The notes under the pieces: generated by a model
Seen by the model: the letters and a program-made list of their open reading frames with translations, nothing else
The model's database searches: none
Told to the model about the DNA's origin: nothing
Made by a program: the position numbers and the translations under genes
From: Clostridia bacterium
Lineage (GTDB): Bacteria > Bacillota > Clostridia > Lachnospirales > Anaerotignaceae
Direction: 5' to 3'
Assembly: GCA_029098265.1 (NCBI GenBank)
Contig: JAQXNZ010000125.1
Span: forward strand, 1 to 37,818
Length of the DNA stretch: 37,818 nt
Shown: positions 10,068 through 30,783 of the stretch, one piece after another
Numbering within the stretch: the first letter of the stretch is position 1
Layout: the number at the start of each line of letters is the position of its first letter

Positions 10068-10136
10068 ACTACACTTAATACTAATCACATATCCTATACA
10101 AAATCAAATCTAAAAATGAAGGAATTCATATCTTAG

Positions 10137-10168
10137 TTTAAACAGGTTAAAACCATGTTTTCGACTTA
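10137..10168 (+). repeat. Degenerate fragment of the ~178-bp structured intergenic repeat
   Basis: These 32 bases match positions 29706-29737 of the full copy beside yabE at 27 of 32 positions, covering the lead-in and helix IV. The 11-base right arm and its 3' A are intact (TGTTTTCGACTTA), while the left arm has decayed. The match stops at the base immediately before the ABC-F stop codon (10169-10171 on the minus strand). Confidence 0.7.
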
Positions 10169-12088
10169 TCAGCTGTTTGCTTCCTCCCACTTTTCATAGA
10201 GTTCTTCAAGACGGCCTTCAAGCTCTGTCTTTTCATCGAAAAGCTCTTTAAGACGGGCGGAGTCGGCGCTTATTTCTGGGTCAAACATCAGCGAATCCAG
10301 CTCTGCTATGCGGGATTCTGTTTTTTCTATTTCTTCCTCGGCCTTTTTTATTTCATTGGCCTTTTTTCTTGCCTTTGCCTGTTCTTCCTTCTGGGTCAGC
10401 CAGTCGCTTTTTGTGGCTGATATATTCTGCGGCTTCTGCTCTGCGGGCTTTCCTGCATTTTCAAGCTCTGCAAGACGCTCTTTTTCGGCCTTTTTCTCAA
10501 GGTAGTAGGTGTAATTGCCCAAATACTGGGTAACGCCGTCTCTTGAAAGCTCCAGCGTGCGCTCGGCGGTCTTATCAATAAAATATCGGTCATGGGATAT
10601 ATAGAGCACAGTGCCGTCATAGCTGTTTATGGCGTCCTCAAGAATTTCTTTGGAATACATGTCCAGATGGTTGGTAGGCTCGTCCAGTATAAGGAAGTTC
10701 GACTTGGACAGCATTATCTTTGCCAGTGATACACGTCCCTTTTCGCCGCCTGACAGAGAGCCTATTGTTTTGAACACATCGTCCTCGGTGAAAACAAAGG
10801 CCGCAAGTACGTTCCTTATTTCGCCGTTGGTCATGTTGGGGTAGGCGTTGTGTATCTCGTCAAATATGGTGTTTCTGTCGTCCAGCTCGTGGTGCTCCTG
10901 GTCGTAGTAGCCGGGATTTACGTTGACACCCAGTGCTGTTTTGCCGCCGTCGGGTGAGAGACTGCCCAGTATTATCTTGAAAAGCGTACTTTTTCCTATG
11001 CCGTTGGGGCCGATTATCGCAACCTTTTCTCCTCTTTTTATCTCAAAGGATACATTGGAGAACAGCTTGTTGGAGCCGAAGCTCATGGACAGATTTTCAA
11101 CGGAAAGCACGTCGTTGCCGCTCTGTATTCTTGGAGTAAGACGGAAGTGCATTTTTTCGGGAAGATTTTCGGGCCTTTCCAACCTGTCCATCTTTTCAAG
11201 AGCCTTTTCTCGGCTCTCGGCACGCTTTATGGACTTTTCGCGGTTGAACTGGCGGAGGGTCTTTATGACCTCCTCCTGATGGCGTATTTCCTTCTGCTGA
11301 TCGGCATACTGCTTGAGCTGTGCTGCCCTTGCAGCGTCCTTCTGTCTTATGAAGAAAGAATAGTTGCCGTTATAGACAGTGGATTTTCCGTTTTCAATAT
11401 CGATTATTTTGGTGACTGTGCGGTCAAGAAAATATCGGTCATGGGATATAATGAGCACAGCACCCGTATAGCCTCTCAAAAAGTCCTCCAGCCACTGTAT
11501 GGATTCTATGTCCAAATGGTTTGTAGGCTCGTCCAGAAGCAGTATGTCGGGACGGGAAAGCAGCAGCCTGCCCAAAAACACACGGGTCTTCTGACCGCCG
11601 GAGAGGGTGCATACCTTCTGACTGTACTCATCCTCGCTGAAGCCTAAGCCCTTCAGAACGCCCTTTATGCGGCTCTGATAGCTGTAGCCGTCGGACTCCT
11701 CAAACTGCTGCTGAAGTCTGGCATACTGTGCCATAAAGCTGTCATATTCGCTGTCAGACAGGGAAGACATTTTTTTCTCCATGTCCCTGAGGCTTTCCTC
11801 CAGCTTGAATATGGGCTCGAATACGGACAGCATTTCTTCGTAAACGGTCTTTTCGGAACGAATGTCTATATTCTGTTCCAGATAGCCGATGGAAACGTCC
11901 TTCGGTATGTAAAGCTGACCGTCATCGTGGGAAAGCTGATCTGTTATTATTCTGAAAAGTGTAGTCTTGCCTGCGCCGTTTACGCCGACTATGGCGGCCT
12001 TTTCCTTATCCTCGAGATTGAATGTTATTTTTTTAAGGATCACATCTGTGCCGTAGCTTTTTGATATATCCTTACACGAAAGTATCAT
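10169..12088 (-). CDS. ydiF: ABC-F family ATPase (YdiF/Uup-like)
   Basis: A 639-residue soluble protein with two ABC ATPase domains and no membrane segment. Domain 1 has GVNGAGKTT at about 35-43, LSGGQKTRVFLGRLLL and LLLDEPTNHLD; domain 2 has GPNGIGKST near 358, LSGGEKGRVSLAKIM and LILDEPTNHLD. A basic, charged linker (about 240-320) and a long C-terminal coiled coil (about 550-639) are typical of the YdiF/Uup subgroup. ABC-F proteins act on the ribosome, modulating translation or relieving stalls; this subgroup is not a known resistance class. In Bacillus ydiF lies close to rex (ydiH), and here it is divergent from rex, which supports the symbol. Its 3' end abuts a repeat fragment. Confidence 0.88.
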   Translation of the reverse strand: MILSCKDISKSYGTDVILKKITFNLEDKEKAAIVGVNGAGKTTLFRIITDQLSHDDGQLYIPKDVSIGYLEQNIDIRSEKTVYEEMLSVFEPIFKLEESLRDMEKKMSSLSDSEYDSFMAQYARLQQQFEESDGYSYQSRIKGVLKGLGFSEDEYSQKVCTLSGGQKTRVFLGRLLLSRPDILLLDEPTNHLDIESIQWLEDFLRGYTGAVLIISHDRYFLDRTVTKIIDIENGKSTVYNGNYSFFIRQKDAARAAQLKQYADQQKEIRHQEEVIKTLRQFNREKSIKRAESREKALEKMDRLERPENLPEKMHFRLTPRIQSGNDVLSVENLSMSFGSNKLFSNVSFEIKRGEKVAIIGPNGIGKSTLFKIILGSLSPDGGKTALGVNVNPGYYDQEHHELDDRNTIFDEIHNAYPNMTNGEIRNVLAAFVFTEDDVFKTIGSLSGGEKGRVSLAKIMLSKSNFLILDEPTNHLDMYSKEILEDAINSYDGTVLYISHDRYFIDKTAERTLELSRDGVTQYLGNYTYYLEKKAEKERLAELENAGKPAEQKPQNISATKSDWLTQKEEQAKARKKANEIKKAEEEIEKTESRIAELDSLMFDPEISADSARLKELFDEKTELEGRLEELYEKWEEANS

Positions 12089-17607: not shown

Positions 17608-18708
17608 ATGTTTGAACTTGACCAGATAGGAAACGAACTGTCACCCTACGAAAATAAGCTCAATGATATGGGCAGGCTTCTCGGCGTGGAAGAGGCCAAG
17701 GAAAAAATCGCCGAGCTGGAGGAAATCTCCGCAGACCCTGATTTCTGGAATGACATGGCAAAAAGCCAGAAAACCATGCAGACTATAAAGGGACTTAAGG
17801 ACAAGGTAAACGGCTATGAGTCTCTGCTCCAGAAATATGAGGATATATATACTCTCATTGAAATGGGCAAGGAGGAGGAAGATGCCGAGCTGCTTGAGGA
17901 AGTAAAGCAGGAGTCCGAGGAATTTAAGGAAAATTATGAAAAGCTCAGAATTTCCACACTCCTTGACGGCGAGTATGACAGAAACAACGCCATTGTTACC
18001 CTCCATGCAGGCGAGGGCGGAACAGAGGCCTGCGACTGGGTAAGCATGCTCTACAGAATGTACACAAGATGGTGCTCAAAGAAGGGCTTTGCCGTTGAGA
18101 CACTGGACTACCTTGAGGGCGAGGAAGCGGGCATAAAGTCCGTTACATTCCAGGTAAACGGCGAAAATGCCTACGGCTATCTTAAGAGCGAAAAGGGCGT
18201 ACACAGACTTGTGCGTGTATCACCCTTTGACTCCTCGGGAAGAAGACATACATCCTTTGCCAGCTGTGATGTAATGCCCGAAATAGATGATGATGTTGAA
18301 ATAGAGATCAGACCCGACGATATTCGTGTCGATACCTACCGTTCAAGCGGCGCCGGCGGACAGCATGTCAATAAGACATCATCGGCTATCCGTATTACCC
18401 ACTATCCCACAGGTATAGTTGTACAGTGCCAGAATGAACGAAGCCAGTTCAGCAACAAGGACACTGCCATGAAAATGCTGCGTTCCAAGCTCCTTGAGCT
18501 CAAGATTGAGGAGCAGATGAAGAAGCTTGCCGAGATAAGGGGCGACGTAAAGGAAAACGCATGGGGCAGCCAGATACGTTCATATGTATTCATGCCCTAT
18601 AACCTTGTAAAGGACGTAAGAACAGGCGAGGAAACTGCCAATGTATCGGCGGTTATGGACGGCGAGATAGACAGATTTATAAATGCTTATCTGAGCTGGA
18701 TACACTAA
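17608..18708 (+). CDS. prfB: Peptide chain release factor 2
   Basis: A 366-residue RF2 that reads UGA and UAA stop codons. The SPF anticodon-like tripeptide is at 205-207 and the GGQ hydrolysis motif (SSGAGGQHVNKTSSAIRITH) at 250-252, exactly the E. coli numbering. It is encoded in one frame: at the place where most RF2 genes have CTT-TGA-C for programmed +1 frameshifting (codons 25-26), this gene has CTT-CTC-GGC (Leu24-Leu25-Gly26 region), so the usual autoregulatory frameshift is absent. ATG at 17608 follows AAAGGAG. It is cotranscribed with secA. Its stop codon directly abuts helix V of the structured repeat. Confidence 0.97.
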   Translation: MFELDQIGNELSPYENKLNDMGRLLGVEEAKEKIAELEEISADPDFWNDMAKSQKTMQTIKGLKDKVNGYESLLQKYEDIYTLIEMGKEEEDAELLEEVKQESEEFKENYEKLRISTLLDGEYDRNNAIVTLHAGEGGTEACDWVSMLYRMYTRWCSKKGFAVETLDYLEGEEAGIKSVTFQVNGENAYGYLKSEKGVHRLVRVSPFDSSGRRHTSFASCDVMPEIDDDVEIEIRPDDIRVDTYRSSGAGGQHVNKTSSAIRITHYPTGIVVQCQNERSQFSNKDTAMKMLRSKLLELKIEEQMKKLAEIRGDVKENAWGSQIRSYVFMPYNLVKDVRTGEETANVSAVMDGEIDRFINAYLSWIH

Positions 18709-18709
18709 A

Positions 18710-18888
18710 GCGTGCGGAGCACGCTAAGTCGAAAACAGGTTTTCGACTTGTATAAATTAAGGTATGAAAAGCCATTAGCAATAAATTTGCAGGCAAATTT
18801 TTGCAAAAGGCTTTTCTCCTCGGCGAAGAGCGCGGTCTCCGCCTGCGGATTCCATTTGGAAAACGCTTCGTTTTCCAAACCTTTCCGC
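18710..18888 (-). repeat. Full-length copy of the ~178-bp structured intergenic repeat (copy A)
   Basis: Read on the minus strand it has the same five helices, in the same order, as the copy at 29582-29757. I: TTTGGAAAACG/CGTTTTCCAAA (18879-18869, 18865-18855). II: GGCG/CGCC (18843-18840, 18825-18822) around the invariant core CGGAGACCGCGCTCTTCG (18841-18824). III: GAAAAGCC/GGCTTTTC (18816-18809, 18773-18766). IV: AAGTCGAAAAC/GTTTTCGACTT (18749-18739, 18736-18726). V: GCGTGC/GCACGC (18724-18719, 18715-18710). Open reading frames across it are by-products of the repeats. It directly follows the prfB stop. Confidence 0.75.
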
Positions 18889-18918
18889 TTAAAAATCCAA
18901 CTCATCTGGATTCTGAGA

Positions 18919-18957
18919 CGTGCAGAGCACGCTAAGTCGAAAACAGGTTTTCGACTT
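18919..18957 (-). repeat. Second helix IV-V module beside copy A
   Basis: Positions 18919-18957 repeat 18711-18749 with one mismatch in 39, exactly 208 bp away in the same orientation, duplicating helices IV and V. Between copy A and this module is another small hairpin, AATCCA/TGGATT (about 18894-18912); after it (on the plus strand) is GAAATC/GATTTC (18963-18976). This suggests partial tandem duplication or a nested second element. Confidence 0.8.
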
Positions 18958-29489: not shown

Positions 29490-29581
29490 TATATATTTAA
29501 TAAAACAGACTGAAGAAAAAGCTTAGACCGTAGATAAACACAACTAATTATTTGAAAGTACTCGATATTAGCCACAATAAC

Positions 29582-29757
29582 CGGGAAAGGTTCGGAAAAC
29601 CGGGAAGGTTTTCTGAGGCTTTAAATCGAGTCGGAGACCGCGCTCTTCGACTCGGAGAAGTCCTAAGACACAAGCTATGCGCAGTGTCAGGACTTCATGC
29701 ATTAATTTAAACAAGTCGAAAACGTGTTTTCGACTTAGTGTCGACTTTGTCGACACT
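29582..29757 (+). repeat. Full-length copy of the ~178-bp structured intergenic repeat (copy B)
   Basis: Five helices in order. I: GAAAACC/GGTTTTC (29595-29601, 29607-29613). II: CGAGTCG/CGACTCG (29627-29633, 29648-29654) around the core CGGAGACCGCGCTCTTCG (29632-29649). III: GAAGTCCT/AGGACTTC (29657-29664, 29689-29696) with inner GACAC/GTGTC. IV: AAGTCGAAAAC/GTTTTCGACTT (29713-29723, 29726-29736). V: AGTGTCGAC/GTCGACACT (29737-29745, 29749-29757). Core and helix IV match copy A in sequence; helices II, III and V match only in pairing. It occupies most of the 380-bp gap between the small NrdD-like gene and yabE and holds no gene. Confidence 0.8.
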
Positions 29758-29758
29758 T

Positions 29759-29789
29759 AAAAAGCGCTCATACAAAATGAGCGCTTTTT
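29759..29789. terminator. Bidirectional terminator after yabE
   Basis: A perfect 13-bp stem (29759-29771, 29777-29789) with a 5-base loop, A5 on one side and T6 on the other. It is 10 bp from the yabE stop and starts immediately after repeat copy B. Confidence 0.92.
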
Positions 29790-29799
29790 TGTGATTGTT

Positions 29800-30783
29800 T
29801 TATTGAAGAATGTATACCGTTACCGTACGTCTGCCCCAGGCATACGCTTCGTTAACGGAATTGTAACAAAGGTCGATACGACGGCCGTCAATTGCTCCTC
29901 CGGTATCCTCGGCTGTCCCGATCCCGTATCCGGGAATATAGAGCTTTGAGCCGAGAGGAATAACATTAGGATCAACTGCTACGGCACCTCGTACCGCCGC
30001 CGTTCCGGTTGCGGTGGTCGAAGTACAGCCTTCGTCAAATCTGGTGTAGCCCGTTGCCACGACCGTAAGAGATTTTGTATATTTAAAATCTCCTGCGGGA
30101 GTTGATACCATACTGGCGGTACCTCTTTCAATAATACAGGTTACAGGCTCGGTAACTACACTGCGGCTTATCTCAGTTGAGTTAGTAAGCTGACCCCCGA
30201 CATAAGTCTCCTCACTGACCACCTCGACAAGGCCGTCTGAACCCTCCTGTATTACTCTTTCGGTACCCTTTGCAAGATCAGAAGTATCTCTGTATTCTAT
30301 TGATTTTTCAATTTTTTCGTACTTTGTAGCTTCTCTGACAAGGGTGGATGACAGCTCTACGATCATTCCGTTTGTCAGAGGTGTGTCCTCGGTAATATCC
30401 TTTGCAAGATAATAATGAAGATTTTCATAGTCGCCCGAAAGGCTTTCGAGAAGCTCTCCCACGGTAAGGGAAGTTGTTTGCACCATGCGGGGAACTCCGT
30501 CATAGTCGATCATAACAGTAACGGAAGGCTTAATCTGTATTACGTCGCCATCCTCTACTATATGGTCTAATGTATAGTTAAGTTCATCATCTTCCGAAAT
30601 AGTTATTTCCTGAAGTTCAAGAAGTTTTTTAACTGATACCGGTTCAGTTAAGTTAGCTGTTGATTTTTGTGTTCCTTCAATAATTGTTACATTCAGACTT
30701 TCTCCGCTGTAGGCAGAAACAGTTCCGCCGAACATTGCCAATAACCCAATCACGATAGCGATTACTCTAAGTCGTTTTGTCAT
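29800..30783 (-). CDS. yabE: YabE-like secreted wall-active protein: DUF348, G5 and 3D domains
   Basis: A 327-residue exported protein. Signal peptide about 1-25 (MTKRLRVIAIVIGLLAMFGG). Two DUF348 repeats (about 28-80 and 82-140), a G5 domain (about 143-220), then the C-terminal 3D domain (about 230-327), whose three aspartates are visible in VAVDPNVIPLGS, EDTGGAI and RIDLC. In 3D proteins these form a lytic-transglycosylase-like active site for peptidoglycan remodelling. ATG 30783 has AAGGAGGA. The metG-tatD-yabE order equals Bacillus metS-yabD-yabE. A WalR-type array and long leader lie upstream; YocH, another 3D protein, is a known WalR target in Bacillus. Confidence 0.9.
   Translation of the reverse strand: MTKRLRVIAIVIGLLAMFGGTVSAYSGESLNVTIIEGTQKSTANLTEPVSVKKLLELQEITISEDDELNYTLDHIVEDGDVIQIKPSVTVMIDYDGVPRMVQTTSLTVGELLESLSGDYENLHYYLAKDITEDTPLTNGMIVELSSTLVREATKYEKIEKSIEYRDTSDLAKGTERVIQEGSDGLVEVVSEETYVGGQLTNSTEISRSVVTEPVTCIIERGTASMVSTPAGDFKYTKSLTVVATGYTRFDEGCTSTTATGTAAVRGAVAVDPNVIPLGSKLYIPGYGIGTAEDTGGAIDGRRIDLCYNSVNEAYAWGRRTVTVYILQ

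Follow-up and report, generated by a model that had tools for sequence, protein, structure and literature searches.

A putative non-autonomous transposon carrying a conserved structured RNA is associated with duplicated terminator stem-loops in Anaerotignaceae

Why does a 32-bp fragment at 10137-10168 end directly against the stop codon of an ABC-F gene, and do all copies of the repeat to which it belongs turn the same end toward the 3' end of a gene, as the first-pass annotation had claimed from three copies? We analysed the window, which is the whole 37,818-nucleotide stretch of DNA, together with the source genome and related genomes.

Read on the minus strand, the fragment shares 27 of its 32 bases with copy B and 26 of 32 with copy A. 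Background 32-mers, sampled from both strands of the window in steps of 16 bases, gave mostly 13-17 matches, and 24 was the highest value below the scores of 28-32, which we take to be the element's own copies. A repeat search of the window extended the fragment to 49 bp at 80% identity. A covariance model of the element, from whose construction the window copies were excluded, matched 10128-10167 (+) with its 3' end (positions 116-155, the last 40) at an E of 0.0028 in the whole window. The likeness to copy B and the contact with the ABC-F stop codon were thus both found again, and the 3' end of the model matches as well. The fragment is the decayed end of a small mobile DNA element. The relevant features of the window are as follows.

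10120-10168, plus strand: element relic, the 3' end of the folded RNA, directly past the ABC-F stop (model positions 116-155 at 10128-10167); the rest is unrecognisable
10169-12088, minus strand: ABC-F ATPase gene, its stop codon touching the relic
17608-18708, plus strand: prfB-like gene (RF-1 and PCRF domains), upstream of copy A
18709-18725, plus strand: upstream hairpin X of copy A, immediately 3' of the prfB stop and flush with helix V
18726-18889, minus strand: folded RNA strand of copy A, complete, 141 bits (covariance model)
18916-18957, plus strand: second hairpin X and helix V of copy A (repeat comparison)
29524-29580, plus strand: right end of copy B (RNA 5' side), terminal repeat ...TTTATCTAC... 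on the minus strand
29581-29736, plus strand: folded RNA strand of copy B, 74.7 bits, family-1 variant (covariance model)
29737-29757, plus strand: terminal hairpin H1 of copy B, AGTGTCGACTTTGTCGACACT, the left end
29759-29790, minus strand: terminator stem-loop of the YabE-like gene, the target hairpin X of copy B
29800-30783, minus strand: YabE-like gene (3D, G5 and DUF348 domains), upstream of copy B

In copy A, the prfB stop codon (18706-18708) is followed without gaps by the 17-nt hairpin and then by helix V, which bears out the placement of this copy at the prfB stop, and a 39-bp unit at 18711-18749 is repeated at 18919-18957 with 97% identity. Some 10 bp separate the terminator hairpin of copy B (about 29759-29790) from the YabE-like stop codon, and here too the coordinates agree with those given before; the right-hand duplicate of hairpin X, at about 29513-29523, looks decayed. 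The folded strand had been described as antisense to the neighbouring gene. This is true of all three window copies: in the relic, copy A and copy B it is antisense to the ABC-F, prfB-like and YabE-like genes, respectively, and the helix-V ends lie toward the stops.

A local repeat of three copies was rejected, because copy B as a query gave 107 matches in the source genome (2.14 Mb in 197 contigs). Pattern searches of these loci recovered 73 left ends and 47 left-right pairs; the 75 right-only matches, mostly spurious products of a lenient pattern, were left uncounted. The covariance model gave 51 matches in the same genome. The element measures about 180-240 bp, has no open reading frame for a transposase, and contains an RNA of about 155 nt. 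Its two subfamilies have common ends and different interiors. Read along the sense strand of the upstream gene, hairpin X is followed by terminal hairpin H1 (built around TGTCGACAAAGTCGACA), helix V (AAGTCGAAAAC...GTTTTCGACTT), an A/T linker, three more helical domains, an end reading ...TTTGTCTACAGTCTG, and a second hairpin X. H1 and the far end form imperfect inverted repeats with 5'-TGT (TGT...ACA type), in which 8-11 of 12 bases agree in each of eight genomes; these terminal inverted repeats are absent from copies without H1. The element is short, multicopy and devoid of a transposase gene, with imperfect terminal inverted repeats and a target site duplication, all of them features typical of MITEs.

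Smaller repeats were seen within it. A hairpin element (AAGTATAGTCAGTATTTTGCTAAAGCAAAACCGC...GCGGTACTAG) lies inside helix V of many source-genome copies (L035, L037, L041, L047, L079 and others), the window copies being free of it, and a related one (ATTGACCGCAC...GTCATGACAGTA) occupies loops of sister-genome copies. Another repeat, with the motif GCAAACCG...CGGCGCCGTAGGCGTTCCCGTAGGGAATTTGAGAACCTGC, is found at one point of a variable stem (L018-L022 and L027-L029, larger in L017, L024 and L025); it has a structured appearance and could be a mobile RNA-like element in its own right.

The covariance model of the folded strand matched 48 of 58 Anaerotignaceae genomes, representing 14 of 17 genera, with up to 51 matches per genome. 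Among named genomes, a first exact pattern had no match; a second pattern matched five named records, four labelled Anaerotignum (including Anaerotignum sp. MSJ-24) and one labelled 'Bacillota bacterium', and the source organism is placed with Anaerotignum. A DNA similarity search outside the family found none of 24 genomes of the same order positive. Spread on plasmids or phages was rejected after a search with one element copy gave no plasmid or phage match and one pattern scan of viral contigs likewise gave none.

Inside the element lies a strongly covarying, undescribed structured RNA. RNAalifold predicted 48 pairs from 15 copies, 15 of them changed on both sides. From 18 copies of several genera it predicted 47 pairs, with 98.6% of cells paired and double-sided changes in 21 pairs, amounting to 86 cells; the alignment values were reached in 0 of 500 shuffles, and slid versions of the 18-copy alignment were all at or below 54% paired. 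When the structure was predicted without G.U pairs, the antisense strand held 33 G.U and 7 A.C cells versus 7 and 33 on the sense strand, and two G.U pairs were invariant in 15 of 15 copies on the antisense strand only. Five helical domains are kept by compensatory change on the strand antisense to the upstream gene. The G.U bias and the two invariant pairs support the first-pass choice of the core-bearing strand, and with it a folded strand antisense to the upstream gene; single-stranded DNA could fit too, and the independent events are few.

Rfam gave no family match in the window at the gathering score. In eight copy-bearing loci, searched to an E of 1, the sole match above the gathering score was a T-box beside the element, and the element itself had no group II intron match. 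A known Rfam family was rejected, the sub-threshold matches (MicX and Termite-leu among them) being at chance level. Elsewhere in the window, 1909-1964 gave a sub-threshold cyano_het_sRNA match (30 bits versus a gathering score of 35.7), which is probably just the terminator of the open reading frame at 1547-1918. In several Anaerotignum metagenome-assembled genomes (L087, L096, L099, L100), a copy lies between the T-box region and alaS at apparently the same place, suggesting retention in a regulatory leader.

We then compared the position of the copies relative to genes. In the source genome, 43 of 49 copies face a gene 3' end within 150 bp of the helix-V (left) end and 6 do not, so the statement that all copies lie one way round at a gene 3' end fails genome-wide. 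The ratio of left ends with and without a nearby gene 3' end was 16:3 in the sister genome and 35:15, within 200 bp, in 11 others. Across the three sets, the intergenic regions with the element were 41 convergent, 55 tandem and 7 divergent. The baseline, neighbouring gene pairs free of the element, comprised 11 convergent, 48 tandem and 21 divergent cases and was taken from simple codon-usage gene calls, not from annotation. The convergent to divergent ratio differs (41:7 with the element versus 11:21 without, p=4e-6), and elements avoid divergent regions. Orientation can be read from tandem regions only, as convergent regions offer a 3' end either way round. The tandem split was 14:4 in the source genome and 7:1 in the sister genome (21:5 in the genus) versus 15:14 in the 11 other genomes, and the groups differ with p=0.045. 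Whether T residues follow the hairpin or A residues precede it, as a measure of terminator polarity, showed no clear difference, either where means alone were compared or in the other-genome copies (p=0.14). The convergent excess and the tandem split therefore indicate that the target is the gene 3' end or the terminator, and that a strict orientation rule is a local bias at most. Fixed orientation is unsupported by the tandem regions outside the genus, although the bias holds within it. The pattern that would speak against the original proposal, namely equal orientations unrelated to stop codons, was found in its first half, orientation being near-equal outside the genus, but not in its second, since the tie to gene 3' ends is strong.

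The element is positioned at gene 3' ends because the terminator stem-loop is the target and is itself duplicated, and the suggestion of targeted insertion at 3' ends is thereby supported. Both flanks were available for 43 of the 47 left-right pairs of the source genome. In 24 of these 43, the left and right flanks match each other above 99% of a null of 1,806 mismatched (off-diagonal) pairings. The same holds for 32 of 60 copies in 11 other family genomes, these 60 having been chosen from listed high-scoring matches and not at random. Several flank matches are perfect over 27-30 bp. Flank duplication was not seen in the other 19 of 43 and 28 of 60 copies, and some copies (for example C12 and C28) carry different hairpins on either side, as would be expected if the flanking hairpins were two unrelated terminators brought together by chance. 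That explanation is scarcely credible overall, and for the matching copies it is refuted by the counts above the null and by the perfect matches. In the sister genome, an isolate assembly, stem-loops are doubled at L112/L135, L113/L125, L115/L131, L128 and others, and several duplicates of 22-31 bp are perfect or almost so.

The extent of the duplicate follows the hairpin. Hairpin length, measured independently of the 3' edge of the duplicate, correlates with duplicate length (Spearman 0.72, Pearson 0.54), and the duplications defined by alignment range from 17 to 49 bp, tracking the hairpin. In 43 of 49 cases no more than 2 nt separate the 5' edge of the duplicate from the hairpin base, and in 45 of 49 the 3' edge is -2 to +5 nt from the other base. 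The duplicates fold with a median energy of -12.2 kcal/mol, compared with -2.0 in random stretches, and 29 of 56 reach the 1% level of the random set or lie below it; the duplicates at C58, L201 and L242 are without a strong stem-loop. The duplicated stretch is a stem-loop, usually an intrinsic terminator, and not a fixed length. In eight instances a flank matched the opposite flank of another place, and two of these fall in a single locus of contig C124, which suggests that some copies with two unlike hairpins may result from recombination between copies or from misassembly of the 197-contig genome. Several copies of the sister genome lack the left hairpin and have helix V at the stop codon. 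Stem-loop duplication marks insertion events. The ancestral, single-terminator state was checked at 30 rpsR loci, of which the RNA model matches three: the rpsR 3' end carries the element in the source genome, between two terminator copies, and in G021, and the match in L272 lies at the far end of the locus.

A mobilising enzyme was sought in seven genomes with four Pfam models. PF05598 (DUF772, the IS1182-type N-terminal domain) gave no match in the seven, the proteins matched by PF00665 all looked IS3-like or Mu-like, PF01609 had no match in the genus, and PF00078 had none in the source genome and a single one, a group II intron, in the sister genome. For the genomes searched, a partner of the IS1182, DDE_Tnp_1, rve or reverse-transcriptase kind was thus rejected. 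An autonomous copy adjoining the RNA was rejected as well, since none of the recurring open reading frame clusters beside the element is transposase-like. The group II intron of the sister genome (L162, 830-2660) lies directly behind an intrinsic terminator.

We consider it probable, at roughly 0.75, that the element is a non-autonomous transposon with TGT...ACA-type ends that inserts at the feet of hairpins, duplicates them, and carries a conserved RNA. Its placement at 3' ends, the strong conservation of the RNA, and the long retention suggested by copies that several related genomes carry behind the alaS T-box region would also suit a 3' element that serves the host, with an RNA kept to stabilise messages, terminate transcription or make antisense RNA and with mobility secondary. 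However, the copies of one genome adjoin unrelated genes, most relatives' rpsR loci are without the element, orientation to the gene is not kept outside the genus, and the stem-loop duplication marks insertion events. We regard a primarily host-serving element as unlikely; the alaS T-box copies leave room for occasional host use. Reverse transcription of the antisense-strand RNA into terminators by a group II intron reverse transcriptase appears quite improbable, because the source genome has no match to PF00078, the paired TGT...ACA ends suit a DNA transposase, the orientations are near-equal outside the genus, and the flanking hairpins are duplicated here, which is not known of group IIC introns. 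The facts that would favour it are the sister-genome intron directly behind a terminator, the RNA-like appearance of the folded strand, and helix V as the constant 3' end of that strand.

The fold could instead act as single-stranded DNA, not RNA, in a one-strand transposon read by an HUH or other structure-reading enzyme. Recognition of single-stranded DNA would likewise be compatible with a fold specific to one strand and with a hairpin at each end, and the smaller hairpin insertions cluster within the element, yet it has both terminal inverted repeats and target duplications, which IS605-type elements and PATEs lack (PMC3119063). This alternative seems improbable.

In the preferred reading of a non-autonomous hairpin-targeting transposon, a transposase acting in trans would recognise the extruded stem-loop, either as a cruciform or as a single-stranded hairpin. 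The element would be joined to each strand at the 5' foot of the hairpin, comparable to pathway b in PMC5678879, and gap repair would then copy the entire stem-loop. The downstream stem-loop copy would keep its T-tract, so that termination would survive and the insertion would do little harm; this would explain the accumulation at 3' ends. The folded strand, whether as RNA or as single-stranded DNA, may serve the element's own mobility or its control. We favour such a role, as a guess, since dispersed copies next to unrelated genes keep the fold. A more specific version is doubtful, namely that in a family-wide class of such elements the transposition machinery includes the conserved RNA of the antisense strand as a functioning component, as guide, scaffold or switch for an enzyme in trans, with the target read as a hairpin shape and not as a sequence and with terminators duplicated whole.

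We file the element as a variant of non-autonomous DNA transposon carrying an undescribed RNA. It offers a large natural data set of whole-stem-loop duplication tied to intrinsic terminators, which IS1272 itself does not perform (PMC5678879). It also provides a testable account of target duplications that are long and of variable length, the IS1202 group being an example in which no target had been found (PMC10132070). The undescribed structured RNA is present in most sampled genomes of one bacterial family, at up to about 50 copies each; the family consists of gut bacteria, and the element occurs dozens of times per genome. The literature searched, with subscription journals outside it, gave no description of the element or of any element that duplicates whole terminators.

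Group IIC introns insert behind intrinsic terminators and consist of a large ribozyme with a reverse transcriptase. The element shares the position behind terminators, but it has neither an Rfam intron match nor a PF00078 match in its source genome, and duplicated flanking hairpins are not known of group IIC introns. IS elements that break REP sequences are described with repeats of 0-6 bp (PMC1525189), in contrast to the duplication of a whole stem-loop seen here. Prokaryotic MITEs such as RUP, BOX and QMITE are short, lack open reading frames, have inverted-repeat ends, occur in many intergenic copies and give transcripts predicted to fold (PMC10969869). The description consulted there mentions no whole-terminator duplication for them, and the interior RNA of the element is conserved in 14 of 17 genera. 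PATEs and IS605-type elements have in common with the element that they are short and non-coding, with palindromes near the ends, and are targeted by smaller repeats; PATEs are without the terminal inverted repeats and target duplication that the element has (PMC3119063). The IS1202 family has 5'-TGT...ACA-3' ends, unusually long target duplications of 16-28 bp and elements of about 1.5 kb with a transposase, and no target was found for its long-duplication group (PMC10132070). The ends agree with those of our element, whereas the duplications here are 17-49 bp and follow the hairpin, and no such transposase was among the PF00665 matches in seven genomes. IS1272, of the IS1182 family, transposes in a structure-dependent manner into stem-loops, often just downstream of genes. 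It encodes a transposase and replaces the stem-loop, and duplication of the whole stem-loop is only drawn as a possible pathway b (PMC5678879). The two systems share the stem-loop target, and the element differs in duplicating the loop, in carrying a structured RNA and in the absence of PF05598 from 7 of 7 genomes. The element thus behaves like structure-dependent transposition, a likeness of conduct and not an assignment to IS1182.
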